Below, piece by piece: positions 1 to 63,489 of a stretch of 64,000 bases of DNA. A program made the translations under genes and the position numbers. Location: contig NZ_BMOO01000001.1 of NCBI RefSeq assembly GCF_014647115.1, positions 434,001 through 498,000 on the forward strand, given 5' to 3'. Position 1 is the stretch's first letter, and each line of letters begins with the position of its first letter. Origin of the DNA: Halarchaeum rubridurum (GTDB lineage Archaea > Halobacteriota > Halobacteria > Halobacteriales > Halobacteriaceae). The notes under the pieces are model-generated. The model made no database searches, was not told the DNA's origin, and saw only the letters and a program-made list of their open reading frames with translations.

Positions 1-69
1 CTAAAGGACACGACACGAGGCGAGCGCCGCACCGACACCGATGCGACGACGACACCCGCGAACCGCACG

Positions 70-79
70 CCCTTTAGTC
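70..79 (+). promoter_or_regulatory. TATA-like promoter of the SWIM/MoxR/VWA cassette
   Basis: The T-rich hexamer CTTTAG at 72-77 lies about 26 bases before the GTG at 101. This is the distance expected when transcription begins at the start codon, so it favours the GTG over the upstream ATG at 41. Confidence 0.45.
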
Positions 80-100
80 GGCCCGGGACTATCGGCGGTC

Positions 101-463
101 GTGACGGCCGACGCCCGCGACGACGGCGAGGACTGGCGCGACGCCCTCGGAGCCGCGGGCGAACTCACACCCGAAATCGTCGCGCGGGTCCTCGACGCGC
201 ACGGCGACCGCGGGCGGCGCGCCATCGACGCCGTCGGCGAGGGGCGCGTGAAGCAGTACGCGGACTTCACGGTCGTCGTCGGCCACGAGGACGAGTACGT
301 CGTCGAGGACGGCGGCTGCACCTGCCGGGACAGCCAGTACAACCTCGACCCCGACGACCCCGACCAGCGCTGCTGGCACGTCCTCGCCGTCGAGATCGCC
401 GAGCGCGTCGGCGCGGTCGACCACCACGACATGTACTACTCCGAGGTCCGGGACTTCCTCTAG
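101..463 (+). CDS. small SWIM zinc-finger protein
   Basis: This acidic 120-residue protein carries a SWIM-type zinc-binding motif: Cys73-Thr-Cys75, then Cys91-Trp-His93, which is the CxC...CxH ligand set of that family. SWIM domains bind DNA or proteins; no catalytic domain is visible and the target is unknown. The frame is also open from an ATG at 41, but the promoter-like sequence at 72-77 and the basic, low-complexity nature of that extra stretch make GTG 101 the better start. It is followed after 49 bases by a MoxR ATPase and then a von Willebrand A protein, all on the same strand, so a shared function is likely. The bacterial SWIM proteins found in MoxR/VWA clusters are usually much larger. 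Confidence 0.75.
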   Translation: MTADARDDGEDWRDALGAAGELTPEIVARVLDAHGDRGRRAIDAVGEGRVKQYADFTVVVGHEDEYVVEDGGCTCRDSQYNLDPDDPDQRCWHVLAVEIAERVGAVDHHDMYYSEVRDFL

Positions 464-512
464 AGACCTGCTTCGCGGGTGCTTTTTGCCGTCGGGCACG
501 TACCGGTCCGCG

Positions 513-1415
513 ATGACCGCTTTCGCGGACGCGACGGAGGCCGACGTGCGCGCGGCCTTCGACGAGCAGGACTACGTCGCCGGCGACGACGTCGTGACGA
601 CGGCGCTCTTGGCGCTCCGACTCGGCAAACCCCTGCTCGTCGAGGGCGCGCCGGGCGCGGGCAAGACCGAACTCGCCAAGACGCTCGCGCGCGGCTTCGA
701 CACCGACCTCGTCCGCCTCCAGTGTTACGAGGGATTGGCGGCCGAGAACGCCCTCTACGAGTGGAACTACACGAAACAGCTCCTCGCCGTCGAGGGCGAT
801 GACGCGAGCGTCGACGGCGAGCGCTCCGTCTTCGACGAGGAGTACCTCCTCGAACGCCCGCTGCTGCGCGCGCTCGCCGAGGCCGACGACGGCGAGAACC
901 CGCCCGTGTTGCTCGTCGACGAGGTCGACCGCGCGGACGAGGCCTTCGAGGCCCTCCTCCTCGAGGTGCTCTCGGACTTCCAGGTGAGCGTCCCCGAACT
1001 CGGCACGATATCGGCCGAGCGCCCACCGATAGTCGTCCTCACGTCGAACCGGACGCGCGGGCTCTCGGACGCGCTCAAGCGCCGCTGTCTCTACCTCCAC
1101 GTCGAACCGCCCACCTTCGAGCGCGAGCTCGAAATCGTCGAACGCAAATCCGCCCTCGACGCCGACGTCGCCGCGGAGGTCTGTGGCGTCGTGCAGGCGC
1201 TGCGCGAGCGCGCGCTCCGCAAACAGCCCGGCGTCGCGGAGACCCTCGACTGGGCGGACGCGCTCGCCGCGCTCGACGTCGAGGGCCTCGACGCGGCGAC
1301 GGTCGAGCGGACCATCGGCTGTCTCCTGAAGGACGCGACGGACGTCGCCGAAATCGACGCCGAGGCCATCGAGGCGGCGCTCGACGAGGCGCGCGCCGGC
1401 ACGCGGGCGGCGTGA
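513..1415 (+). CDS. MoxR-family AAA+ ATPase
   Basis: This 300-residue AAA+ ATPase has a Walker A motif GAPGAGKT (residues 45-52), a Walker B motif LLVDEVDRA, and SNRTRGLSDALKRRC in the sensor-1 to arginine-finger region, which is typical of MoxR ATPases. The family acts as a chaperone or metal-insertion motor paired with a VWA protein. ATG 513 was chosen because a T-rich promoter element (482-488) lies 27 bases upstream; an in-frame ATG at 486 would add nine residues. Its stop overlaps the start of the VWA gene by one base (TGATG), so the two are translationally coupled. The substrate of this haloarchaeal pair is not known. Confidence 0.9.
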   Translation: MTAFADATEADVRAAFDEQDYVAGDDVVTTALLALRLGKPLLVEGAPGAGKTELAKTLARGFDTDLVRLQCYEGLAAENALYEWNYTKQLLAVEGDDASVDGERSVFDEEYLLERPLLRALAEADDGENPPVLLVDEVDRADEAFEALLLEVLSDFQVSVPELGTISAERPPIVVLTSNRTRGLSDALKRRCLYLHVEPPTFERELEIVERKSALDADVAAEVCGVVQALRERALRKQPGVAETLDWADALAALDVEGLDAATVERTIGCLLKDATDVAEIDAEAIEAALDEARAGTRAA

Positions 1416-2614
1416 TGGACGACTACCTCCGGGCGGAGCTCGTCCGCTTCGCCGCCGCGCTCCGCGAGGGCGGCGTCGCGGTCCCGGGGGACGGCGCGCT
1501 CGCGGCCGCCGACGCCCTCGACGCGCTCGACGACCGGAGCCGGGAGTCGGTCCGCGCGGCGCTGCGCGCGACGCTCTGCACCCGCCCCGCCGACGAGGGC
1601 ACCTTCGCGTCGCGCTTCGAGACGTTCTGGACGCGCGTCCGGGGCGGCGAGGCGTCCTACGGCGGCGACGACGGCGTCGCCACGCTCGACACGAGCGCCG
1701 AGGGGGTGGCGGACGCCCCCGGCCAGATGGTCGTCGACGAGAGCGCCGCGATGCCGGGTGGCGCGGGCGGCGAACGCAGCGGCGGCGTCGGCCCGAGCCA
1801 GAGCGAGCGCGCCGGCAGCCAGTACAGCGCCGACGGCGCGAGCGAGCAGGTGTCGCTCGACGGCATCCACGGCAACGACGACATCGACGACGCCGTCGCG
1901 GCGTTCACCGAGGCGGTCGCGTCGCTCCCCGGCCGCCGGTGGGGCCGGGGCGAGGGGACGCCCGACGTCCGGCGCGCGCTCCGCCGCGGGGCCGCGACCG
2001 GCGGCGTCCCCCTCCCCCTCCCGGAGCGCGAACGCGAGCGAACCGCCGCGCGCGGCCTCGTCTTCGTCGACGTCAGCGGCTCCGTCCTCGACCACCTCGA
2101 CCGGGACGTCCTCGTCGGCTTCTGCCACGCGGTCCGCACGCGGTGGCGGCGGACGCCGATCTACTTCTTCGACACCGCGCTGCGCGACGTCAGCGGGGCG
2201 TTCGACGTCTCGACGCCCGCGGCCGCCGCCGACGTCCTCGAATCGACGCGCGTCGAGTGGGGCGGCGGCACTCGAATCGGTGACGCGCTCGCCGCGCTCC
2301 GCCGCGACCGCCCGGAGCGCGTCGGCCGCCGCGACACCGTCGTCGTCGTCAGCGACGGCATCGAGCGCGGCGGCACCGACGTCCTCCGCGAGCAGGCCGC
2401 GTGGCTCTCGCGGCGCGCCGGTCACGTCCTCTGGCTGAACCCGCTCGCCGCCGACGAGCGCTGGACGCCGAGCGCGCCCGGCATGCGCGCCGTCCTCCCC
2501 TACCTCGACGGCCTGTACGCCTTCGCCGACACCGACGACCTCGCCGCACTCGCCGACGACCTGCGGCGGAACGGCCCGACGCGCCGCGCCGCCGACGGGA
2601 AACGGAGCGTCTGA
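1415..2614 (+). CDS. VWA (CoxE-like) domain protein
   Basis: This 399-residue partner of the MoxR ATPase has a C-terminal von Willebrand A domain of the CoxE type. The metal-ion-dependent adhesion site begins at the DVSGS motif (DxSxS) and a second metal-site region follows around SDGIERGG. The middle segment is Gly/Ser/Gln-rich and probably disordered. GTG 1412 is also in frame, but ATG 1415 gives the common TGATG coupling. In the family, the VWA protein binds a client and the ATPase remodels it. The cassette ends here; the next gene is convergent. Confidence 0.88.
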   Translation: MDDYLRAELVRFAAALREGGVAVPGDGALAAADALDALDDRSRESVRAALRATLCTRPADEGTFASRFETFWTRVRGGEASYGGDDGVATLDTSAEGVADAPGQMVVDESAAMPGGAGGERSGGVGPSQSERAGSQYSADGASEQVSLDGIHGNDDIDDAVAAFTEAVASLPGRRWGRGEGTPDVRRALRRGAATGGVPLPLPERERERTAARGLVFVDVSGSVLDHLDRDVLVGFCHAVRTRWRRTPIYFFDTALRDVSGAFDVSTPAAAADVLESTRVEWGGGTRIGDALAALRRDRPERVGRRDTVVVVSDGIERGGTDVLREQAAWLSRRAGHVLWLNPLAADERWTPSAPGMRAVLPYLDGLYAFADTDDLAALADDLRRNGPTRRAADGKRSV

Positions 2615-2668
2615 AGAACAGGGAGCCGACGAGCGGACAGCGGGAGCGTCGCGGGGGGAGGGTCGCGG

Positions 2669-3331
2669 TTACGACTCCGCCGCGCAGAGGTCGACGTAGT
2701 TCCGCAGAATACGGAGGCCGGTCTCGCCGGATTTCTCCGGGTGGAACTGCGTGCCGAAGACGGTGCCGTCGTCGTTCGCCACGACGGACGCGAAGTCCGC
2801 GCCGTACTCCGTCGTCGTCACGACGTGGTTCGGGTCCTCGGGTTCCGCGTAGTAGGAGTGGACGAAGTAGGCGTACTCCCCATCGACGCCCGCGACGAGC
2901 GGGTGGTCGCGCTCGACGCGCAGTTCGTTCCACCCCATGTGCGGGACCTTCAGGTCGGGGTCCTCGAAGCGGACGTTCGTCCCCGGAATCAGCCCGAGGC
3001 CCTCGACGTCGCCCTGCCCCTCGCGGTCCGCCTCCTCGCTCGTGTCGAGGAGCATCTGCATCCCCAGACAGATACCGAACAGCGGCGTGTCCGAGTCCGC
3101 GACGTCGCGCAGGGCCTCGCGGAAGGGGCCCGCGTTCTCCATCCCGTCGCCGAACGCGCCGACGCCCGGGAGGACGACGCCGTCCGCCTCGTCGAGCGCG
3201 TCGGGGTCGTCCGAGACCTCGACGGCCGCGCCCGCGCGTTCGAGACCGCGCGTCACGCTCCGGAGGTTCCCCAGGCCGTAGTCCACGACGACGACGTCCG
3301 CCGTCGTCTCGCGGGTCGCGTGCGTGCTCAT
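2669..3331 (-). CDS. hisH: imidazole glycerol phosphate synthase, glutaminase subunit
   Basis: HisH (220 residues) releases ammonia from glutamine for HisF in the fifth step of histidine synthesis. It is a class I glutamine amidotransferase: the oxyanion-loop motif PGVGAFGDGM, the nucleophile elbow GICLGMQ with Cys88, and the His-Glu pair in FHPEKSG are all present. The frame is open nine residues further upstream, but that stretch is Pro-rich and ATG 3331 matches the family start. No other his gene is in the window, which is usual in haloarchaea, where his genes are scattered. Confidence 0.95.
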   Translation of the reverse strand: MSTHATRETTADVVVVDYGLGNLRSVTRGLERAGAAVEVSDDPDALDEADGVVLPGVGAFGDGMENAGPFREALRDVADSDTPLFGICLGMQMLLDTSEEADREGQGDVEGLGLIPGTNVRFEDPDLKVPHMGWNELRVERDHPLVAGVDGEYAYFVHSYYAEPEDPNHVVTTTEYGADFASVVANDDGTVFGTQFHPEKSGETGLRILRNYVDLCAAES

Positions 3332-3721
3332 ACTGGAAAGTGGGGGAGGCCGGGGCAAGACAGTTTCCCCTCCATCTGTTTCCAGCGAGGGGTCGCCGTA
3401 GGCGACCCCCGCGCTGCAAAAACACGGTCCACGCGAGTGAAACGAGTGTGGGACCAGCGAGGCCCGACGGGTCTCGCAGGGGTGAAAAAGGCCGACGGCT
3501 TCGCCGTCGGTGAAACTCGTGCCAGCGGCGCGAGTACGCTGGACCGCACCGCGACCGACGCGGACGTCAGAGACAGCCGTCTACCAAACGAACCACGAAG
3601 AGGATTCCGCGAGCCGAGTGGTTCGAAGAACCCGGTAGGTCCACGGTTCCCTCGCCGGAGGCTCGCAGACGTTTGGCCGAGCGTGTGCCGGGGCGCGAAG
3701 CGCCCGCGGCAAAAGGCCGTA
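3332..3721. other. 390-base gene-free region with two structured repeats
   Basis: No convincing gene lies here. Long open frames cross it but are composition artefacts. The region holds the first copy of a multi-hairpin repeat (3389-3540) and, next to the end of the uracil-DNA glycosylase gene, a second type of palindromic repeat (about 3670-3722). Between them (about 3541-3670) I see no clear structure. Confidence 0.7.
3389..3540. repeat. multi-hairpin dispersed repeat, family A copy 1
   Basis: The central 64 bases (3426-3489) match 32500-32563 at 60 positions. Around this core lie hairpins that keep their place but not their sequence in the other copy. They are a perfect 9-base-pair stem GGGGTCGCC/GGCGACCCC at 3389-3409, a stem with CCGACGGC/GCCGTCGG ending at 3510, and CTCGTGCC/GGCGCGAG at 3517-3535. 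The string GGTGAAACTCG (3509-3519) is identical in both copies. Conserved pairing with changed bases suggests selection on a folded RNA or DNA form. Confidence 0.8.
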
Positions 3722-3722
3722 T
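3670..3722. repeat. palindromic intergenic repeat, family B copy 1
   Basis: The segment contains TTTGGCCGAGC, then a hairpin GGGCGC-GAA-GCGCCC, then GCGGCAAAAGG. The same order occurs at about 22905-22970 with a different hairpin stem. It abuts the 3' end of the glycosylase gene (minus strand), where it could also act in transcript ending. Confidence 0.5.
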
Positions 3723-4318
3723 CAGAAGTCCCCGAGGCTCGACTGTCCGCCCTCGGCGCCGACGATGGTGGCGACCTTCTCGATGGCGGATGCGAAGGTG
3801 TCCTCCTGCGAGCGGTCGTAGAGCGTGGCGGCGGGGTGGACGCAGACGAGGACGTCGAGGCGCGCGTCGCCGACGGCGACGGTCTCGACGGTCCCGGCCT
3901 CCGTCGTGACAGCGACGGAGCGTTCGAGGAGGTGTTGGGCGGGGACCTTCCCGAGCGCGACGACGACCTCGGGGTCGACGAGTTCGAGTTCGCGTTCGAG
4001 GTAGGGCCGACAGTTGGCGAGTTCGGTCTCACTGGGATCGCGGTTCTCGGGTGGGCGACAGCGCACGCAGTTCGTGATGCGGACGTCGCGTCGGCGGAGC
4101 CCGTGGGTGTCGAGGGCGTCGTCGAGGACGTCGCCGCTGCGGCCGACGAAGGGTTCGCCCTGCTCGTCCTCGTTCGCGCCGGGGCCCTCGCCGACGAAGA
4201 CGACGTCGGCGTCGTCGGGGCCGACGCCGTTGACGATGCGGCTGCGGGAGTCGACGAGGTCCGCGCACCGCTCGCAGGCCGTGACGCGGAGGCCGTCCAT
4301 CCCCTCGGAATCGCTCAT
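3722..4318 (-). CDS. family 4 uracil-DNA glycosylase
   Basis: This 198-residue enzyme removes uracil from DNA in base-excision repair. The family-4 signature GEGPGANEDEQGEPFVGRSG holds the catalytic water-activating loop, and HPAA near the C-terminus is the second active-site motif. Cysteines in the N-terminal CERC, in NCVRC and in NCRPYL are the expected ligands of the 4Fe-4S cluster. The acidic composition fits a haloarchaeal cytoplasmic protein. It stands alone, followed downstream by a palindromic repeat. Confidence 0.93.
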   Translation of the reverse strand: MSDSEGMDGLRVTACERCADLVDSRSRIVNGVGPDDADVVFVGEGPGANEDEQGEPFVGRSGDVLDDALDTHGLRRRDVRITNCVRCRPPENRDPSETELANCRPYLERELELVDPEVVVALGKVPAQHLLERSVAVTTEAGTVETVAVGDARLDVLVCVHPAATLYDRSQEDTFASAIEKVATIVGAEGGQSSLGDF

Positions 4319-4373
4319 ACTCGCGGGTCGGCGCGGAGGGCGTTAAGCCCCGGGGTTCGGCGGTGGCGGGGCG

Positions 4374-4937
4374 TCAGCGGTCGGTGGGGCACCGGTAGCG
4401 GTCGGCGGCGCGCGCGGCCTCGCGGGCGACGCGGAGGGGTTCGGGCCGGCCGCCCTCGGGGGTGTGCGCGCGGACGACGCGCGCAGGGTCGTCGCAGCCG
4501 ACGCTCCGGACGTAGACGGTGTCGTCGTTCACGGCCACGGGGCGGCGCTCGGGGAGCGCGCGGTAGGCGGCGAGGCGTTCGTCGGCCGCGTCGCCGTCGA
4601 ACTCGCGGCGGATGGCCTCGTCGAGGCCCGCGCTCGCCTCGAAGGAGACGGCGAGGACGGGGCGGTCGGTCGCGTCGTGGAGCCGCTGGAGGTCGAGGAC
4701 GTTGTACCACGCGAGCGCGACGCCGGCGACGAGGACGTGGCGGACGTCGGGCCGGTCGAGGCCCCTCCAGAGCTCGACGATGGCGTCGGTGGCGTCGTTC
4801 CCACCGACGGTACAAGCGGAGAAACGGAAGTCGTCGACGACGCGGTCGGCGCGAACGACGGCACCCGCGAGCGTGCTCCGGCCGGCTTCGCCGACGTAGG
4901 ATTCGGCGAGCCCGAGCGCGCGGGTGCCGCCCTTCAC
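4374..4937 (-). CDS. DUF99 (UPF0215) family protein
   Basis: This 187-residue protein matches the archaeal DUF99 family, with the conserved stretches ALGLAES, VGGNDATDAIV and GVALAWYNVLDL. The family has been compared with endonuclease V-like folds, but no activity is established, so none is assigned. It starts directly next to the stop of the small DUF5786-type gene upstream (one base between them), so the two are probably co-transcribed from the promoter before that gene. Confidence 0.8.
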   Translation of the reverse strand: MKGGTRALGLAESYVGEAGRSTLAGAVVRADRVVDDFRFSACTVGGNDATDAIVELWRGLDRPDVRHVLVAGVALAWYNVLDLQRLHDATDRPVLAVSFEASAGLDEAIRREFDGDAADERLAAYRALPERRPVAVNDDTVYVRSVGCDDPARVVRAHTPEGGRPEPLRVAREAARAADRYRCPTDR

Positions 4938-5114
4938 TTACTCGCCCTTGATGTCCTGCAGTTTATCCAGAAGCTCGTCGTTGCTGGCGTCGATTTCGTA
5001 CTCGACTTGGCCCTCGTGGGCGTTCTGCTCGGTTTCGACTCCCTCGCCCTCGGCGTCGTCCGAATCGAGTTGCTGACGCTCTTGCTCTGACTCGTCGTAG
5101 CTTCCGAATCCCAT
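4938..5114 (-). CDS. small acidic DUF5786-type protein
   Basis: This very acidic 58-residue protein begins MGFGSYDESEQE and resembles the haloarchaeal DUF5786 family from memory; its function is unknown. ATG 5120 is two codons upstream, but the conserved start MGFGSY and the promoter spacing favour 5114. No membrane segment or metal motif is visible. It is the first gene of a probable two-gene unit with the DUF99 gene. Confidence 0.7.
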   Translation of the reverse strand: MGFGSYDESEQERQQLDSDDAEGEGVETEQNAHEGQVEYEIDASNDELLDKLQDIKGE

Positions 5115-5135
5115 ACCCATCTGTTCTGGATTCAG

Positions 5136-5162
5136 GCACTAAAAAGAACCGGATATTTAAAA
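5136..5162. promoter_or_regulatory. back-to-back TATA boxes
   Basis: On the minus strand CTTTTTAG (5139-5146) lies about 25 to 30 bases before ATG 5114. On the plus strand ATATTTAAAA (5153-5162) lies about 25 bases before GTG 5178. Both spacings fit leaderless or near-leaderless transcripts. Confidence 0.6.
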
Positions 5163-5177
5163 CTAGGGTGTTTAGGC

Positions 5178-5795
5178 GTGGACGTGCGCGTCGAACACGT
5201 CACCGCGGCGGCGGAATCGTTCACCTGTAACGCCTACCTCGCGCTCGGCGACCGTGACGTCCTCGTCGACGCGGGCGCGATGGACGGCGTCGCGGACGTC
5301 GTCGCCGACCACACCGACACCCTCGACGCGGTCGTGCTCACGCACCAGCACGGCGACCACGTCGAGGCGCTCGACGAGGTAGTGACAGCGTTCGACCCGG
5401 CGGTGTACGCCTACGCCGCACATCCCCACCGGACGGACGCGCTCGACGACGGCGAGGCGGTCGAAATCGGCGACGAGACCTTCGAGGCCGTCTACACGCC
5501 GGGCCACGCGGACGACCACCTCGCGTTCGTCTCGGACGCGACGCTCTTCTCGGGCGACGTCGTCGTCCACGACGACGGCGCGTTCGACTACGGGAGTTTC
5601 GGCCGGACGGACATGGCCGGACAGAGCAGGGAGACGCTCATCGAGAGCATCGAGCGCCTGCTCGACCGCATGCCGGCGGGCGTCGAGCACATGTACGCGG
5701 GCCACGGCGGCACCTACCACGGCGACGTCCGTGACGTCGTCGAGACGGCGCTCGAACGCGCGGAGAAGCGCGAGCCGAAGTACCCCGACGAGTAA
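5178..5795 (+). CDS. MBL-fold metallo-hydrolase (glyoxalase II-like)
   Basis: This 205-residue metallo-beta-lactamase-fold protein has the metal motif THQHGDH (HxHxDH), a GHADDH histidine, the aspartate in FSGDVV and a late histidine in YAGHGG. This is the full dinuclear zinc ligand set of hydrolytic members. The arrangement is closest to glyoxalase II-like hydrolases, but the thioester or other substrate cannot be read from sequence. GTG 5178 is supported by a TATA box at 5153-5162. The next gene, on the same strand, has its own promoter and operator. Confidence 0.85.
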   Translation: MDVRVEHVTAAAESFTCNAYLALGDRDVLVDAGAMDGVADVVADHTDTLDAVVLTHQHGDHVEALDEVVTAFDPAVYAYAAHPHRTDALDDGEAVEIGDETFEAVYTPGHADDHLAFVSDATLFSGDVVVHDDGAFDYGSFGRTDMAGQSRETLIESIERLLDRMPAGVEHMYAGHGGTYHGDVRDVVETALERAEKREPKYPDE

Positions 5796-5883
5796 CCAGA
5801 CCTACCGCTTCTCGCGATTCGTGGTCCATCGCGACGCCGACGCCCCCACCAACGACGGCACCACGGTATGCGCCAACACAAAG

Positions 5884-5907
5884 AAATAAGATTAGACGTA
5901 TCTAATC
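5884..5907 (+). promoter_or_regulatory. TATA box overlapped by a DtxR-type operator candidate
   Basis: The inverted repeat GATTAGA-CGTA-TCTAATC (5890-5907) directly follows a TATA-like AAATAAG (5884-5890) and ends 12 bases before the start of the Nramp transporter. The TTAG...CTAA form resembles binding sites of haloarchaeal DtxR-family metal regulators such as SirR and Idr. Placement over the transcription start suggests repression when metal is plentiful. Confidence 0.7.
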
Positions 5908-5919
5908 CTCGGCTACCTA

Positions 5920-7161
5920 ATGTCGAATCGCGCGTTCTCGGTCCGCGAACTGCTGCGGTACCTCGGGCCGGGCTTTCTCATCTCCGTCGCGTACATGGAC
6001 CCGGGGAACTGGGCGACGAACATCTCCGGGGGCGCGCGCTACGGCACCGCGCTCCTCTGGGTGATCGTCCTCGCCTCCCTCGTGGCGATGGGCATCCAGA
6101 TCGTCGCCGCGAAACTCGGCATCGCCACCGGGAAGGGAATCGCCACCCTCTGCCGGGAGCGACTCCCCCAGCCCGTCGTCTACGTGCTCTGGGCGGCCGC
6201 CGAACTCGCCATGATCGCCACCGACATGGCCGAGATCATCGGCGCGGCCATCGGGTTCAGCCTCGTCTTCGGCCTCCCCCTCTGGGCGGGCGCGGTCCTC
6301 GCCGGAATCTCCAGTTTCGCCCTCCTGGGCGTTCGCTCGGCGCACCGCCGGGGCTTTCGCGCCATCGAGTTCGCCATCATGGCGCTCGTCGGCGTCATCG
6401 CGCTCGCGTTCGTCTTCGAGGTCGTCCTGGCGAGACCCGACCCGGCGAACGTCGCGCTCGGCCTCGCGCCCTCGATCCCGAGCGCCGACGCGCTCTACGT
6501 CGCCATCGGCATCCTCGGCGCGACCGTGATGCCCCACTCCGTCTACCTCCACCCCTACATCGTCCAGGACCGCCGCGCGGACCTCGTCGCCACGGCCGGC
6601 GACACCGAGGACGTCCACCGGCGACACTTCCGCTACGAGTCCATCGACACCGTCCTCGCGCTCTTCGGGGCGATGTTCGTCAACGCCGCGATGCTCGTCG
6701 TCGCCGCCGCCGCGCTCACCGGCACCGGAATCGAGACGCTCAACGAGGCCTACGTCACGCTCGCGGGCGTCTTCGGTCCGAACGCCAGCCTCGCCTTCGG
6801 CGTCGCGCTCATCGCCGCCGGCCTCTCCTCCTCGCTCGTCGCCACAATGGCCGGCCAGACCGTCATGGACGGCTTCCTCGACTGGAACGTCAACGTCTGG
6901 ATACGGCGCTCCGTTACGCTCGTCCCGAGCCTCGCCGTCGTCGTCGCCGGCTTCGAGCCCACGAGCGTCCTCGTCGCCTCGCAGGTCGCCCTCTCCTTCG
7001 AGCTGCCGTTCGTCCTCATCCCTCTCGTCTACTTCACGCGCGAGGAGGGGCTCATGGGGTCGTTCGTCAACCGCACGAGCACCACGGGCGTCCTCGGCGT
7101 CGTGGTCGCCGTCATCGTCGCGCTCAACGGGTGGCTGCTCTACACGACGCTCCTCGGGTGA
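5920..7161 (+). CDS. mntH: Nramp-family divalent metal (Mn2+/Fe2+) importer
   Basis: This 413-residue membrane protein has about eleven transmembrane helices. It carries both family signatures: DPGN (residues 27-30) in helix 1 and MPHSVYLH in helix 6, whose Asp, Asn and Met coordinate the ion. It therefore probably imports Mn2+ or Fe2+ with protons. The upstream palindrome at 5890-5907 looks like a metal-dependent repressor site. The gene stands alone. The exact metal preference is inferred from the conserved methionine, which favours transition metals over Mg2+ or Ca2+. Confidence 0.92.
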   Translation: MSNRAFSVRELLRYLGPGFLISVAYMDPGNWATNISGGARYGTALLWVIVLASLVAMGIQIVAAKLGIATGKGIATLCRERLPQPVVYVLWAAAELAMIATDMAEIIGAAIGFSLVFGLPLWAGAVLAGISSFALLGVRSAHRRGFRAIEFAIMALVGVIALAFVFEVVLARPDPANVALGLAPSIPSADALYVAIGILGATVMPHSVYLHPYIVQDRRADLVATAGDTEDVHRRHFRYESIDTVLALFGAMFVNAAMLVVAAAALTGTGIETLNEAYVTLAGVFGPNASLAFGVALIAAGLSSSLVATMAGQTVMDGFLDWNVNVWIRRSVTLVPSLAVVVAGFEPTSVLVASQVALSFELPFVLIPLVYFTREEGLMGSFVNRTSTTGVLGVVVAVIVALNGWLLYTTLLG

Positions 7162-7223
7162 CGGCGCGCGAGCGAGGGCCGCGATTCTAAAACCTTAACC
7201 GCCTCCGCGCCGATTTCGTCCGT

Positions 7224-7370
7224 ATGGCCGAGCAAACCATCGAGGACCGCCTCCTCGGAAAGCAGATCTGCATGCGCTGTAACGCGCGCAACGCGAAGGA
7301 AGCGACGCAGTGCCGCAAGTGTGGCTACGGGAAGCTCCGCCCGAAGGCCCGCGAGCGCCGCGCGACGTAA
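7224..7370 (+). CDS. rpl40e: 50S ribosomal protein L40e
   Basis: This 48-residue basic protein has a four-cysteine zinc finger, CMRCNARN...CRKCGYG, followed by a Lys/Arg-rich tail, which is the full length of archaeal L40e. It is a component of the large ribosomal subunit. The gene is short and monocistronic-looking; ATTTC-rich sequence at 7212-7218 precedes it without a clear TATA box. Confidence 0.93.
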
Positions 7371-7432
7371 CGCCTTCTTCTTTCGTTCGCTGTTCTCGCA
7401 CCCGGGAGCGACGGCGAACGCCGGTAATTCCG

Positions 7433-7936
7433 CTACTCGTCCGCGCCCGCGTCGAGGTACTCCTGTTGCACCGCGACCACCTCGGCCGAGTCGTCGCACG
7501 CGGCGTACCGCCGCAGGGGCTCCTCGTTCAGTTCGAGGAAGGTGTGCCCCCACCGGAACTTCGAGAGCACGTCCTCGGCGTGCTCGCGCTCCCCGAGGAT
7601 GCAGAGCGCGCCCGCGAAGGCCTCCGCGGTGTTGAGCTGGAAGGGCTTGCCGTAGTTCACGGGGTTTGCGGCGACGAGGAACGGGAGCGCGCGGTGTTCG
7701 CCGGCCATCTCGAACATCGCGCGCTCGGCCGTCTCCCACGAGCAGTCGAGCGCGACGAGCGTCGAGTGGTCGGCGTCCGCGGGCGAGAGCGCGGTGTCCG
7801 CGTGGGGGTTGAGGACGAGCCCGTACGGCGTCGCCCGATTCGTCCGGTGGAGCTCGGCCATGTCGAAGCGCGCGAGCTTGCGCGCCGTGCACTTCTCGGG
7901 GTCGTCGTCGCCCTCGTAGCGGACGTGGAGGTCCAC
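7433..7936 (-). CDS. tsr3: 16S rRNA aminocarboxypropyltransferase Tsr3
   Basis: This 167-residue SPOUT-like enzyme matches Tsr3 (DUF367), which transfers the aminocarboxypropyl group of S-adenosylmethionine to a hypermodified pseudouridine of small-subunit rRNA. Recognisable blocks are [29 protein letters not shown] and [13 protein letters not shown] 7936 overlaps the stop of serS by one base (TAGTG), showing translational coupling. A longer open frame continues upstream but lies inside serS and is not real. Pairing with serS fits a translation-related operon. Confidence 0.92.
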
Positions 7937-30446: not shown

Positions 30447-30527
30447 GAAGCCTAGGCCGGGATTTGAACAGCGTCAGACGGTCGCTCCCTTCGGTCGCGC
30501 TGCGACTGACTGGCTCAACTCCCGGCT
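30447..30527. repeat. tRNA-Thr 3'-end copy with large inverted repeat
   Basis: Bases 30447-30469 are identical to 30560-30582, which are the T-arm and acceptor end of tRNA-Thr (23 bases). The rest forms an imperfect inverted repeat: the arm starting GCCGGGATTTGAAC pairs with one reading GCCGGGAGTTGAGC on the other strand. The loop (30475-30507) matches 29 of 33 bases of the segment after tRNA-His on the opposite strand. Confidence 0.75.
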
Positions 30528-30561
30528 ACGGCTACTGCTCGTCACGTGGTTCCTCGAAGGA

Positions 30562-30633
30562 AGCCTAGGCCGGGATTTGAACCCGGGGTCTCGTCCTTAC
30601 CAAGGACGCGCTTTACCGCTAAGCTACCCAGGC
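30562..30633 (-). tRNA. tRNA-Thr (anticodon GGT)
   Basis: A complete 72-base cloverleaf reads on the minus strand: acceptor GCCTGGG/CCTAGGC, D stem GCTT/AAGC, anticodon stem CGTCC/GGACG with loop TTGGTAA, T stem CCGGG/CCCGG with TTCAAAT, discriminator T. No intron is present and CCA is not encoded. Its 3' end is repeated 113 bases downstream. Confidence 0.95.
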
Positions 30634-32372: not shown

Positions 32373-32443
32373 GCACCGGTGGTCTAGTGGTAGGACATGA
32401 GCTTCCCAAGCTCATAGCCCGGGTTCAATTCCCGGCCGGTGCA
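32373..32443 (+). tRNA. tRNA-Gly (anticodon CCC)
   Basis: A complete 71-base cloverleaf: acceptor GCACCGG/CCGGTGC, D stem GTCT/GGAC, anticodon stem TGAGC/GCTCA with loop TTCCCAA, T stem CCGGG/CCCGG, discriminator A. No intron. The multi-hairpin repeat (family A) begins 21 bases downstream. Confidence 0.95.
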
Positions 32444-32761
32444 TTTCCATCTTTTTCCGAGTCGGGTGCGCGGGGGCGCACCCGTCCCCGCAAAAGCATG
32501 GTCCACGCGAGCGAAGCGAGTGTGGGGCCAGCGAGGCCCCACGGGTCTCGCAGGGGTGAAAAACCCCCGAGCGACGAAGTCGCTCGGTGAAACTCGCGCT
32601 TCGCGCGAGTACAGTATAGCGACCGCGCGCCTCATAGTCGCGTGACACGCGTCGTCAACGGCGAACACCGGCCACCGTACGGTTCGTGTTCGCAGTTACG
32701 GTCAGTTCCTCCGGGCGGAGCGAGCAGCGAACTCGACGAGCGGAGAAACAGACAGTCCGCC
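32444..32761. other. 318-base gene-free region after tRNA-Gly
   Basis: The region starts with a T-rich stretch after tRNA-Gly (CTTTTT at 32451-32456, a probable terminator) and holds family A copy 2 (32464-32612). The rest, up to the end of the convergent purine permease gene, has no feature I can support; open frames crossing it are artefacts of the repeat and base composition. Confidence 0.6.
32464..32612. repeat. multi-hairpin dispersed repeat, family A copy 2
   Basis: The core 32500-32563 matches 3426-3489 at 60 of 64 bases. Flanking stems are GGGTGCGC/GCGCACCC (32464-32483), CCGAGCGAC/GTCGCTCGG before the invariant GGTGAAACTCG (32586-32596), and CTCGCGC/GCGCGAG (32593-32609). Each stem differs in sequence from copy 1 but occupies the same place. 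Confidence 0.8.
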
Positions 32762-63294: not shown

Positions 63295-63368
63295 GTCCGG
63301 GTTGGGGTAGTGGACTATCCTTCAGCCTTGTGGAGGCTGAGACGCGGGTTCAATTCTCGCACCTGGAC
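63295..63368 (+). tRNA. tRNA-His (anticodon GTG)
   Basis: A 74-base cloverleaf: the extra G at position -1 (63295) pairs with C73 (63368), which is the mark of tRNA-His. The acceptor stem is TCCGGGT/ACCTGGA, the anticodon loop TTGTGGA, and the T stem GCGGG/CTCGC. No intron is present. A degenerate copy of the 3' end lies 119 bases downstream. Confidence 0.93.
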
Positions 63369-63401
63369 CTTTCTGTTGTGACCGACGGTGAGTAGCTGAA
63401 A

Positions 63402-63489
63402 GTCCACGTCGAGAAGTGGACCACGGGAGTCGCAGCGCGAACGGCGTGAGCGACCGTCTGCCGGCGGTTCACTTCTCGCATCTGGGCCT
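63402..63489. repeat. tRNA-His 3'-end copy with large inverted repeat
   Basis: Bases 63466-63489 match 63347-63370 (T-arm and acceptor end of tRNA-His) at 21 of 24 positions. The arm at 63402-63423 is nearly complementary to them (TCGAGAAGTGGACC pairs with GGTTCACTTCTCGC). The loop segment 63428-63460 matches the one beside tRNA-Thr (30475-30507, other strand) at 29 of 33 bases. Confidence 0.75.

Follow-up and report, generated by a model that had tools for sequence, protein, structure and literature searches.

We found a family of hairpin units linked to tRNA genes that extends throughout the class Halobacteria. The units are gene-less cassettes of about 100 to 140 bp, their hairpin structure is under selection, as shown by strong compensatory change, and whole units are present or absent between sister species exactly at the tRNA 3' boundary. 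It is likely that they are tiny mobile or recombining elements; the mechanism is inferred, and gain of a unit has not been demonstrated. The stretch of DNA analyzed (here, the window) comprises 64,000 nucleotides of the Halarchaeum rubridurum genome and contains two of these units.

The units and their link to tRNA genes

The first unit of the window (63370-63489, forward strand) lies 3' of tRNA-His(GTG), which both ARAGORN and Rfam place at 63296-63369 on the same strand. It begins with a short hairpin adjoining the tRNA, HP1 (TTTCTGTTGTGACCGACGGTGAGTAGCTGAAA, 63370-63399; recognized by its fold, its position, and a GA-motif as in other units), followed by a left arm that imitates the tRNA-His 3' end in inverted form (AAGTCCACGTCGAGAAGTGGACCACGGG, 63400-63427; supported by the inverted repeat, the fold, and arm covariation), a conserved core hairpin (AGTCGCAGCGCGAACGGCGTGAGCGACCGTCTG, 63428-63460; supported by core matches in the window and across species and by covariation), and a right arm that is a direct copy of the tRNA from the T-loop to the 3' end (63466-63489), all on the forward strand. 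The right arm, GGTTCACTTCTCGCATCTGGGCCT, is identical to the end of tRNA-His, GGTTCAATTCTCGCACCTGGACCT, at 21 of 24 bases and is offset 119 bases downstream, and the arms of the inverted repeat (63410-63427 and 63461-63478) are 83% complementary and separated by 33 nt.

The second unit (30561-30449, reverse strand) lies 3' of tRNA-Thr(GGT) (30562-30633, reverse strand, ARAGORN and Rfam) and comprises, also on the reverse strand, a spacer that is equivalent to HP1 when aligned with other units (30534-30561), a left arm that imitates the tRNA-Thr 3' end in inverted form (AGCCGTAGCCGGGAGTTGAG, 30514-30533, supported by the fold), the conserved core (30475-30507), and a right arm that directly copies the T-loop to the 3' end of tRNA-Thr (30449-30469). 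The two cores agree at 29 of 33 bases, with a compensatory change of the apical pair (A-T to C-G), and the runner-up site on either strand of the 64-kb window matches only 22 of 33. Both units fold better than dinucleotide shuffles (z of -2.6 to -5.0), and they contain the only strong core copies of the 2.8-Mb genome. These measurements uphold what a first-pass annotation, made from sequence alone, had claimed for this region, namely, a degenerate copy of the tRNA-His 3' end at this distance and identity, placed in an inverted repeat whose core recurs beside tRNA-Thr on the other strand.

The tRNA-Gly of the window (32373-32443, forward strand, ARAGORN and Rfam) has no downstream copy of its own 3' end and no unit. 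Several strong hairpins, GC-rich and with GCGA/GAGC-like parts (CGAGCGAAGCGAG), lie 3' of this gene (32444-32640) without a tRNA copy, and a flank similar in style (TCCGTCTTTTT...CAAAAACACGGGAG) was observed 3' of tRNA-Arg(tct) in genomes G000 and G002. A tRNA-Arg called by ARAGORN at 4111-4192 of the window has no support from Rfam, falls in a GC-rich coding stretch, and so is probably spurious.

In the whole H. rubridurum genome, a copy of the gene's own 3' end lies downstream of 11 of the 41 tRNA genes and upstream of none. Upstream copies were also absent from 194 tRNA contexts, in which all units are on the tRNA strand; most of these contexts were chosen for their downstream cores, and the 39 from H. 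rubridurum itself were not. The first-pass annotation had further claimed that the arms imitate their own tRNA. This held for the right arm, which in 95 tRNA-linked units fits its own tRNA at 20.1/22 versus 13.8/22 for other tRNAs; the left arm tracks the tRNA strongly in its T-loop/T-stem part and only weakly in its acceptor part (z of 5.4 with gapped matching), a specificity that ungapped matching missed and that is weak but real. A search of haloarchaea with the core, which that annotation had proposed, placed most copies 49 to 385 bp (median, 73) past a tRNA on the same strand, and the outcome that would have refuted it, cores located mostly away from tRNA genes, failed to appear, only a minority being so placed. 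Its suggestion of a family of tRNA-linked elements is supported, the family being larger than suspected, and its single core has to be refined, since several core types exist.

An exact scan for the core in 84,980 species gave 92 stretches, and the 80 that were fetched all came from Halobacteria (80/80). A covariance model built from 41 units matched 236 of 242 Halobacteria genomes (70 of 74 genera), 18 of 19 genomes inside the order, and none of 101 genomes sampled from the same phylum outside the order. Among 50 sampled hits of the model, 45 lie directly 3' of a called tRNA and copy its 3' end; T-loop arms are also present in the remaining five. At L330, L336, and L342, an upstream tRNA 3' end is visible where ARAGORN called no gene, and at L315 and L325 the T-loop arms mismatch the nearest tRNA. 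The isotypes hosting units include Leu, Gly, Thr, Lys, Pro, Tyr, Glu, Ser, Trp, and Ala, together with His, Met, Arg, Asp, Ile, Gln, Val, and Phe; most isotypes serve as hosts, and the tRNAs equipped differ between species. At tRNA-Lys-ctt of H. rubridurum (L007), we observed HP1 and then an apparently decayed unit without a right arm, at a place where the unit of G002 is intact.

The minority of core copies located off tRNAs (13 in Halocatena, Actinarchaeum, and YIM A00010, in addition to four loci of genus g4) sit in multi-hairpin intergenic elements. Those of the first three groups are repeated, consist of three hairpins, and often end in a T-run plus an A-run; off-tRNA elements of this kind were seen at L075, L078, L099, L102, L106, L111, L112, L117, L118, and L129, and Halocatena pleomorpha has at least nine copies. 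The version of genus g4 (L043, L049, L050, and L051, around position 1501) has the arms GTTCGACCCCG/GTTCGACGAAGC and appears in four species with related surroundings. Three core copies (L060, L108, and L133) carry T-loop arms, with no called tRNA and no tRNA copy assigned.

Anatomy and selected structure

Aligned units follow a single order: tRNA 3' end, HP1, left arm, short stem, core, and right arm. HP1 starts no more than a few bases past the tRNA, and GCGA...GAGC commonly flanks its loop. The left arm corresponds to the inverted T-loop/T-stem plus a weaker inverted acceptor part, the core has the consensus GNCGCAGC-GCGANCGNNGNGAGC-GACCGTC with an apical N-N' pair that varies among A-T, G-C, and C-G, and the right arm extends from the T-loop of the tRNA through its 3' end. 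The bodies range from 32 to 297 bp (median, 102), too short for genes, and none was found inside the units. The same layout is maintained with alternative core types, GGTCGCGCGCA...GAGCACGTCCGACC at the Arg-tct and Val-gac genes of H. rubridurum and a plain GGAGG/CCTCC hairpin at Leu-caa.

In 41 diverse units, standard pairs occupy 94.7% of the pair cells versus 85.3% in shuffled data, and pairing drops to 24 to 48% in controls with slid partners. Both sides of a pair have changed in 83 cells versus 25 in shuffles, and not one of 500 shuffles equaled either the observed pairing or the observed double changes. The two stem pairs located outside the arms are the most variable and are still paired (G-C 19 and C-G 17 in one; A-T 16, G-C 14, and C-G 9 in the other), and the T-stem positions of the arms that differ among tRNAs covary. 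The criterion that characterizes attC-type sites, a hairpin that folds from one strand and is kept more by structure than by sequence, is met.

On the tRNA-sense strand, stem mismatches are more often G.T (76) than A.C (34) when scoring is restricted and symmetric, which is no more than suggestive. A first, looser strand scoring had given 46 G.T to 87 A.C due to misaligned acceptor columns, and the bias in HP1 (13 to 7) is not significant. Transcription-associated mutation of the sense strand can also yield a G.T bias. The internal loops were inspected by eye as possible kink-turns or bulge-helix-bulge motifs, and neither reading fitted.

Shared cores, arrays, and precise presence or absence

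The unit of a tRNA-Gly(ccc) (L119) and that of a tRNA-Ser(gga) (L149) are identical at 42 of 44 inner bases and different in both arms, those of the former (GGGAATTGAA...TTCAATTCCC) fitting tRNA-Gly and those of the latter (ACTGGGATTTGAA...TTCAAATCCCAGT) fitting tRNA-Ser. For about a third of the units, the closest relative is at the same tRNA in another genome; therefore, locus-bound inheritance is also common. Spread within a genome cannot be derived from these nearest neighbors, given that few units were sampled per genome.

Some tRNA genes are followed by several units. One tRNA-Gly (L038) has seven core copies in tandem, with a spacing of mostly 111 bp, and arrays with unrelated bodies follow tRNA-His in G005, G007, G011, and G023. 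The first of the two units in G023 is 86% like the lone unit of G019, and the second is 76% like the units of G018 and G022, while the arrays of G005 and G011 have first units that are 97% alike and second units with a common hairpin and differing HP1. By analogy, this modular pattern recalls cassettes.

Comparison with a species of the same genus (G002) covered 37 tRNA loci, at 12 of which at least one species has a unit, and several of them differ. At Arg-tct, the 60 bp past the right arm in G000 are the same as the 60 bp past the tRNA in G002 (60/60). Boundary scores at the other differing loci were 52 for Arg-cct (where the extra unit is the tRNA-proximal one), 38 for Tyr, 31 for Thr, and 19 for His, with nulls of 9 to 13, and the score of the Phe locus was inseparable from its null. 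Arg-tct has units in G000 and G001 and none in G002 and G003, and Tyr has them in G000, G001, and G010 and none in G002 and G003. Since related units occur at Arg-tct and Tyr in further species, loss is likely at both loci. In haloarchaea, deletion of DNA flanked by short direct repeats is known (PMC3119063).

Proposed recombining cassette or possible tRNA-linked RNA

We propose that the unit is a gene-less hairpin cassette that recombines at tRNA T-loop/3' ends, following the logic of integron attC sites without being an integron, a reading to which we give a probability of roughly 0.42, the best of the readings considered. Several parts of this reading are inferred, namely, that there is a single-strand intermediate, that a recombinase acts in trans, that units are gained by insertion, that the element is selfish, and that the arms are re-copied. 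A single strand would fold so that the left and right arms rebuild the duplex of the host tRNA T-loop/3' end, and this folded site would recombine with the tRNA gene, as the single-strand attC hairpin does with attI in integrons. The tRNA would remain intact, and its displaced 3' end would become the right arm. Repeated insertion would produce arrays, the same recombination or repeat-mediated deletion would produce precise loss, and the core would spread among tRNA genes with arms re-copied from each new tRNA. The T-stem-loop is a recognized integrase target region (PMC8371274), and the T-loop/3' end is one of the regions that tyrosine recombinases use as attB. Recombination of a folded strand would account for the presence of an inverted arm and a direct copy, for the intact tRNA and the fixed orientation, and for the arrays and the precise sites.

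The cassette reading is favored by the compensatory change, the cores common to Gly and Ser with arms of their own tRNA, the precise presence or absence, the tandem arrays, and the constant location on the tRNA strand. Against it, no recombinase is linked to the units, there is no evidence of a circular or single-strand form, precise loss alone can be explained by repeat-mediated deletion (PMC3119063), much inheritance occurs at one locus, the sense-strand G.T lean would equally suit an RNA, and no cargo-bearing unit was found, in contrast with integron cassettes. Candidate cargo cassettes at L067, L090, L091, L104, and L142 were rejected, as partial, truncated, or contig-edge tRNA copies adjoin them. 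A bolder version, which remains possible, is a host-templated hairpin element whose mobile core would have both arms rewritten from the tRNA gene it enters and would form arrays by means of a single-strand site that folds, the tRNA gene acting as the attI of an integron.

The main rival, also possible, is a functional RNA within the primary transcript of the tRNA, involved in 3' processing or termination or giving rise to a tRNA-derived small RNA. Selection on RNA folding would keep arms and stems paired, and the location of the units always downstream on the tRNA sense strand, the strong compensatory change, the excess of G.T over A.C among arm mismatches, and the conservation across the class are all in its favor. 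However, the distribution is patchy, as seen in the 11 equipped tRNA genes of H. rubridurum, species of the same genus differ at Arg-tct, Tyr, Thr, His, and Arg-cct, the tRNAs equipped vary by species, arrays with unlike bodies would be odd for a needed trailer, and the G.T lean lacks significance in HP1. Furthermore, Rfam 15 matches above the gathering score were to tRNAs only, with no family fitting the unit. If the RNA reading were true instead, the units would be a large unknown family of tRNA-linked RNAs.

We consider it unlikely that the units are mutational by-products of template switching plus repeat-mediated rearrangement and gene conversion, with neither mobility nor function. The arms do copy adjacent sequence, repeat-mediated deletion is known in haloarchaea (PMC3119063), and decayed copies occur (Lys-ctt). 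However, this leaves unexplained the near-letter-for-letter conservation of the core in 70 genera, the compensatory change in stems not copied from a tRNA, and the occurrence in Halobacteria only, and it is hard to hold because one and the same core at different tRNAs would not result from independent origins. Also unlikely is that they are remnants of tRNA-integrated viruses or plasmids, in which a deleted element would have left its attR as the right arm. Such integration is expected to leave the tRNA 3' end directly repeated, haloarchaeal elements use tRNA genes (PMC8371274, PMC3119063), and L104 does have a genuine integrated element, longer than 7 kb, that ends in a partial tRNA-Thr. However, the unit of L104 is outside that element, past its attR, the body of the units is a constant, small, structured family, unlike random leftovers, no viral contig in IMG/VR (one unrelated hit only) and no plasmid in PLSDB carries a unit, and no gene-bearing elements of intermediate size appeared among about 80 loci of 8 kb. 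Finally, a host decoy, in which spare tRNA 3' ends would divert the integrases of viruses and plasmids from the tRNA gene, is very unlikely. Although the right arm is the segment that many integrases use as attB and haloarchaeal tRNA genes are integration targets, insertion of an element into the right arm was not observed in any unit, and the inverted arm and core would be without a role.

Returning to the cassette reading, the units resemble integron attC sites (PMC9668308) in their imperfect hairpin with unpaired loops and a variable apical stem, and integron cassettes in their tandem addition behind a fixed site and the direct repeats at each cassette boundary. They differ in that cassettes carry genes and the units have no cargo, in that no intI is linked to them (no genome-wide intI search was made), and in that their arms copy the tRNA instead of R/L boxes; the attC motifs RYYYAAC/GTTRRRY are not met, the arms GTTCRAATCC being the tRNA T-loop, with a C (non-purine) after GTT. 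The study of archaeal integrons makes no mention of haloarchaea (PMC9668308). The SMRs and PATEs of Haloquadratum are also transposase-free mobile repeats of about 50 to 110 bp with inverted repeats or palindromes, and the mobilization of SMRs has been termed enigmatic (PMC3119063). However, SMRs have fixed terminal repeats and target IS605/PATE palindromes without target duplication, and the ends of PATEs resemble IS605 (PMC3119063), whereas our units are linked to tRNAs, duplicate the tRNA end, and have arms that change with the tRNA. Thus, the features defining MITEs, SMRs, or PATEs (fixed terminal repeats or IS605-like ends and a fixed target rule) are not met. Viruses and plasmids that integrate in tRNA genes by tyrosine integrases likewise duplicate the tRNA 3' end, keep the tRNA whole, and commonly target the T-stem-loop (PMC8371274), but they carry an integrase and kilobases of genes and lack both an inverted tRNA arm and a hairpin core common to all isotypes. 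Of the criteria for such elements, the units satisfy those of a tRNA 3' end repeated directly at the far boundary and of precise empty sites in relatives and fail that of an internal integrase or genes. REP/MITE-type palindromes are small hairpins moved in trans, and the attP of CTX-type phages is a folded single-strand recombination site; neither is known to re-copy its arms from each host tRNA gene.

The family is apparently undescribed, which we consider likely within the limits of the open-access full-text literature, where no description was found (a subscription paper could be missed) and the core sequence retrieved unrelated primers only. If the cassette reading is true, a small unannotated element exists beside tRNA genes throughout a class of archaea, a non-coding element that can adapt to every tRNA through copying. 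Many of the fragmentary tRNA copies in haloarchaeal genomes would then be explained, and archaeal genetics would gain a single-strand recombination site of natural origin. As a separate observation, the large integrated element of Halolamina salifodinae (L104, positions 1-7700) ends in a tRNA-Thr copy without the 5' part, with a hairpin unit just outside, and this copy resembles the truncated tRNA-Thr described for the haloviruses HF1/HF2.
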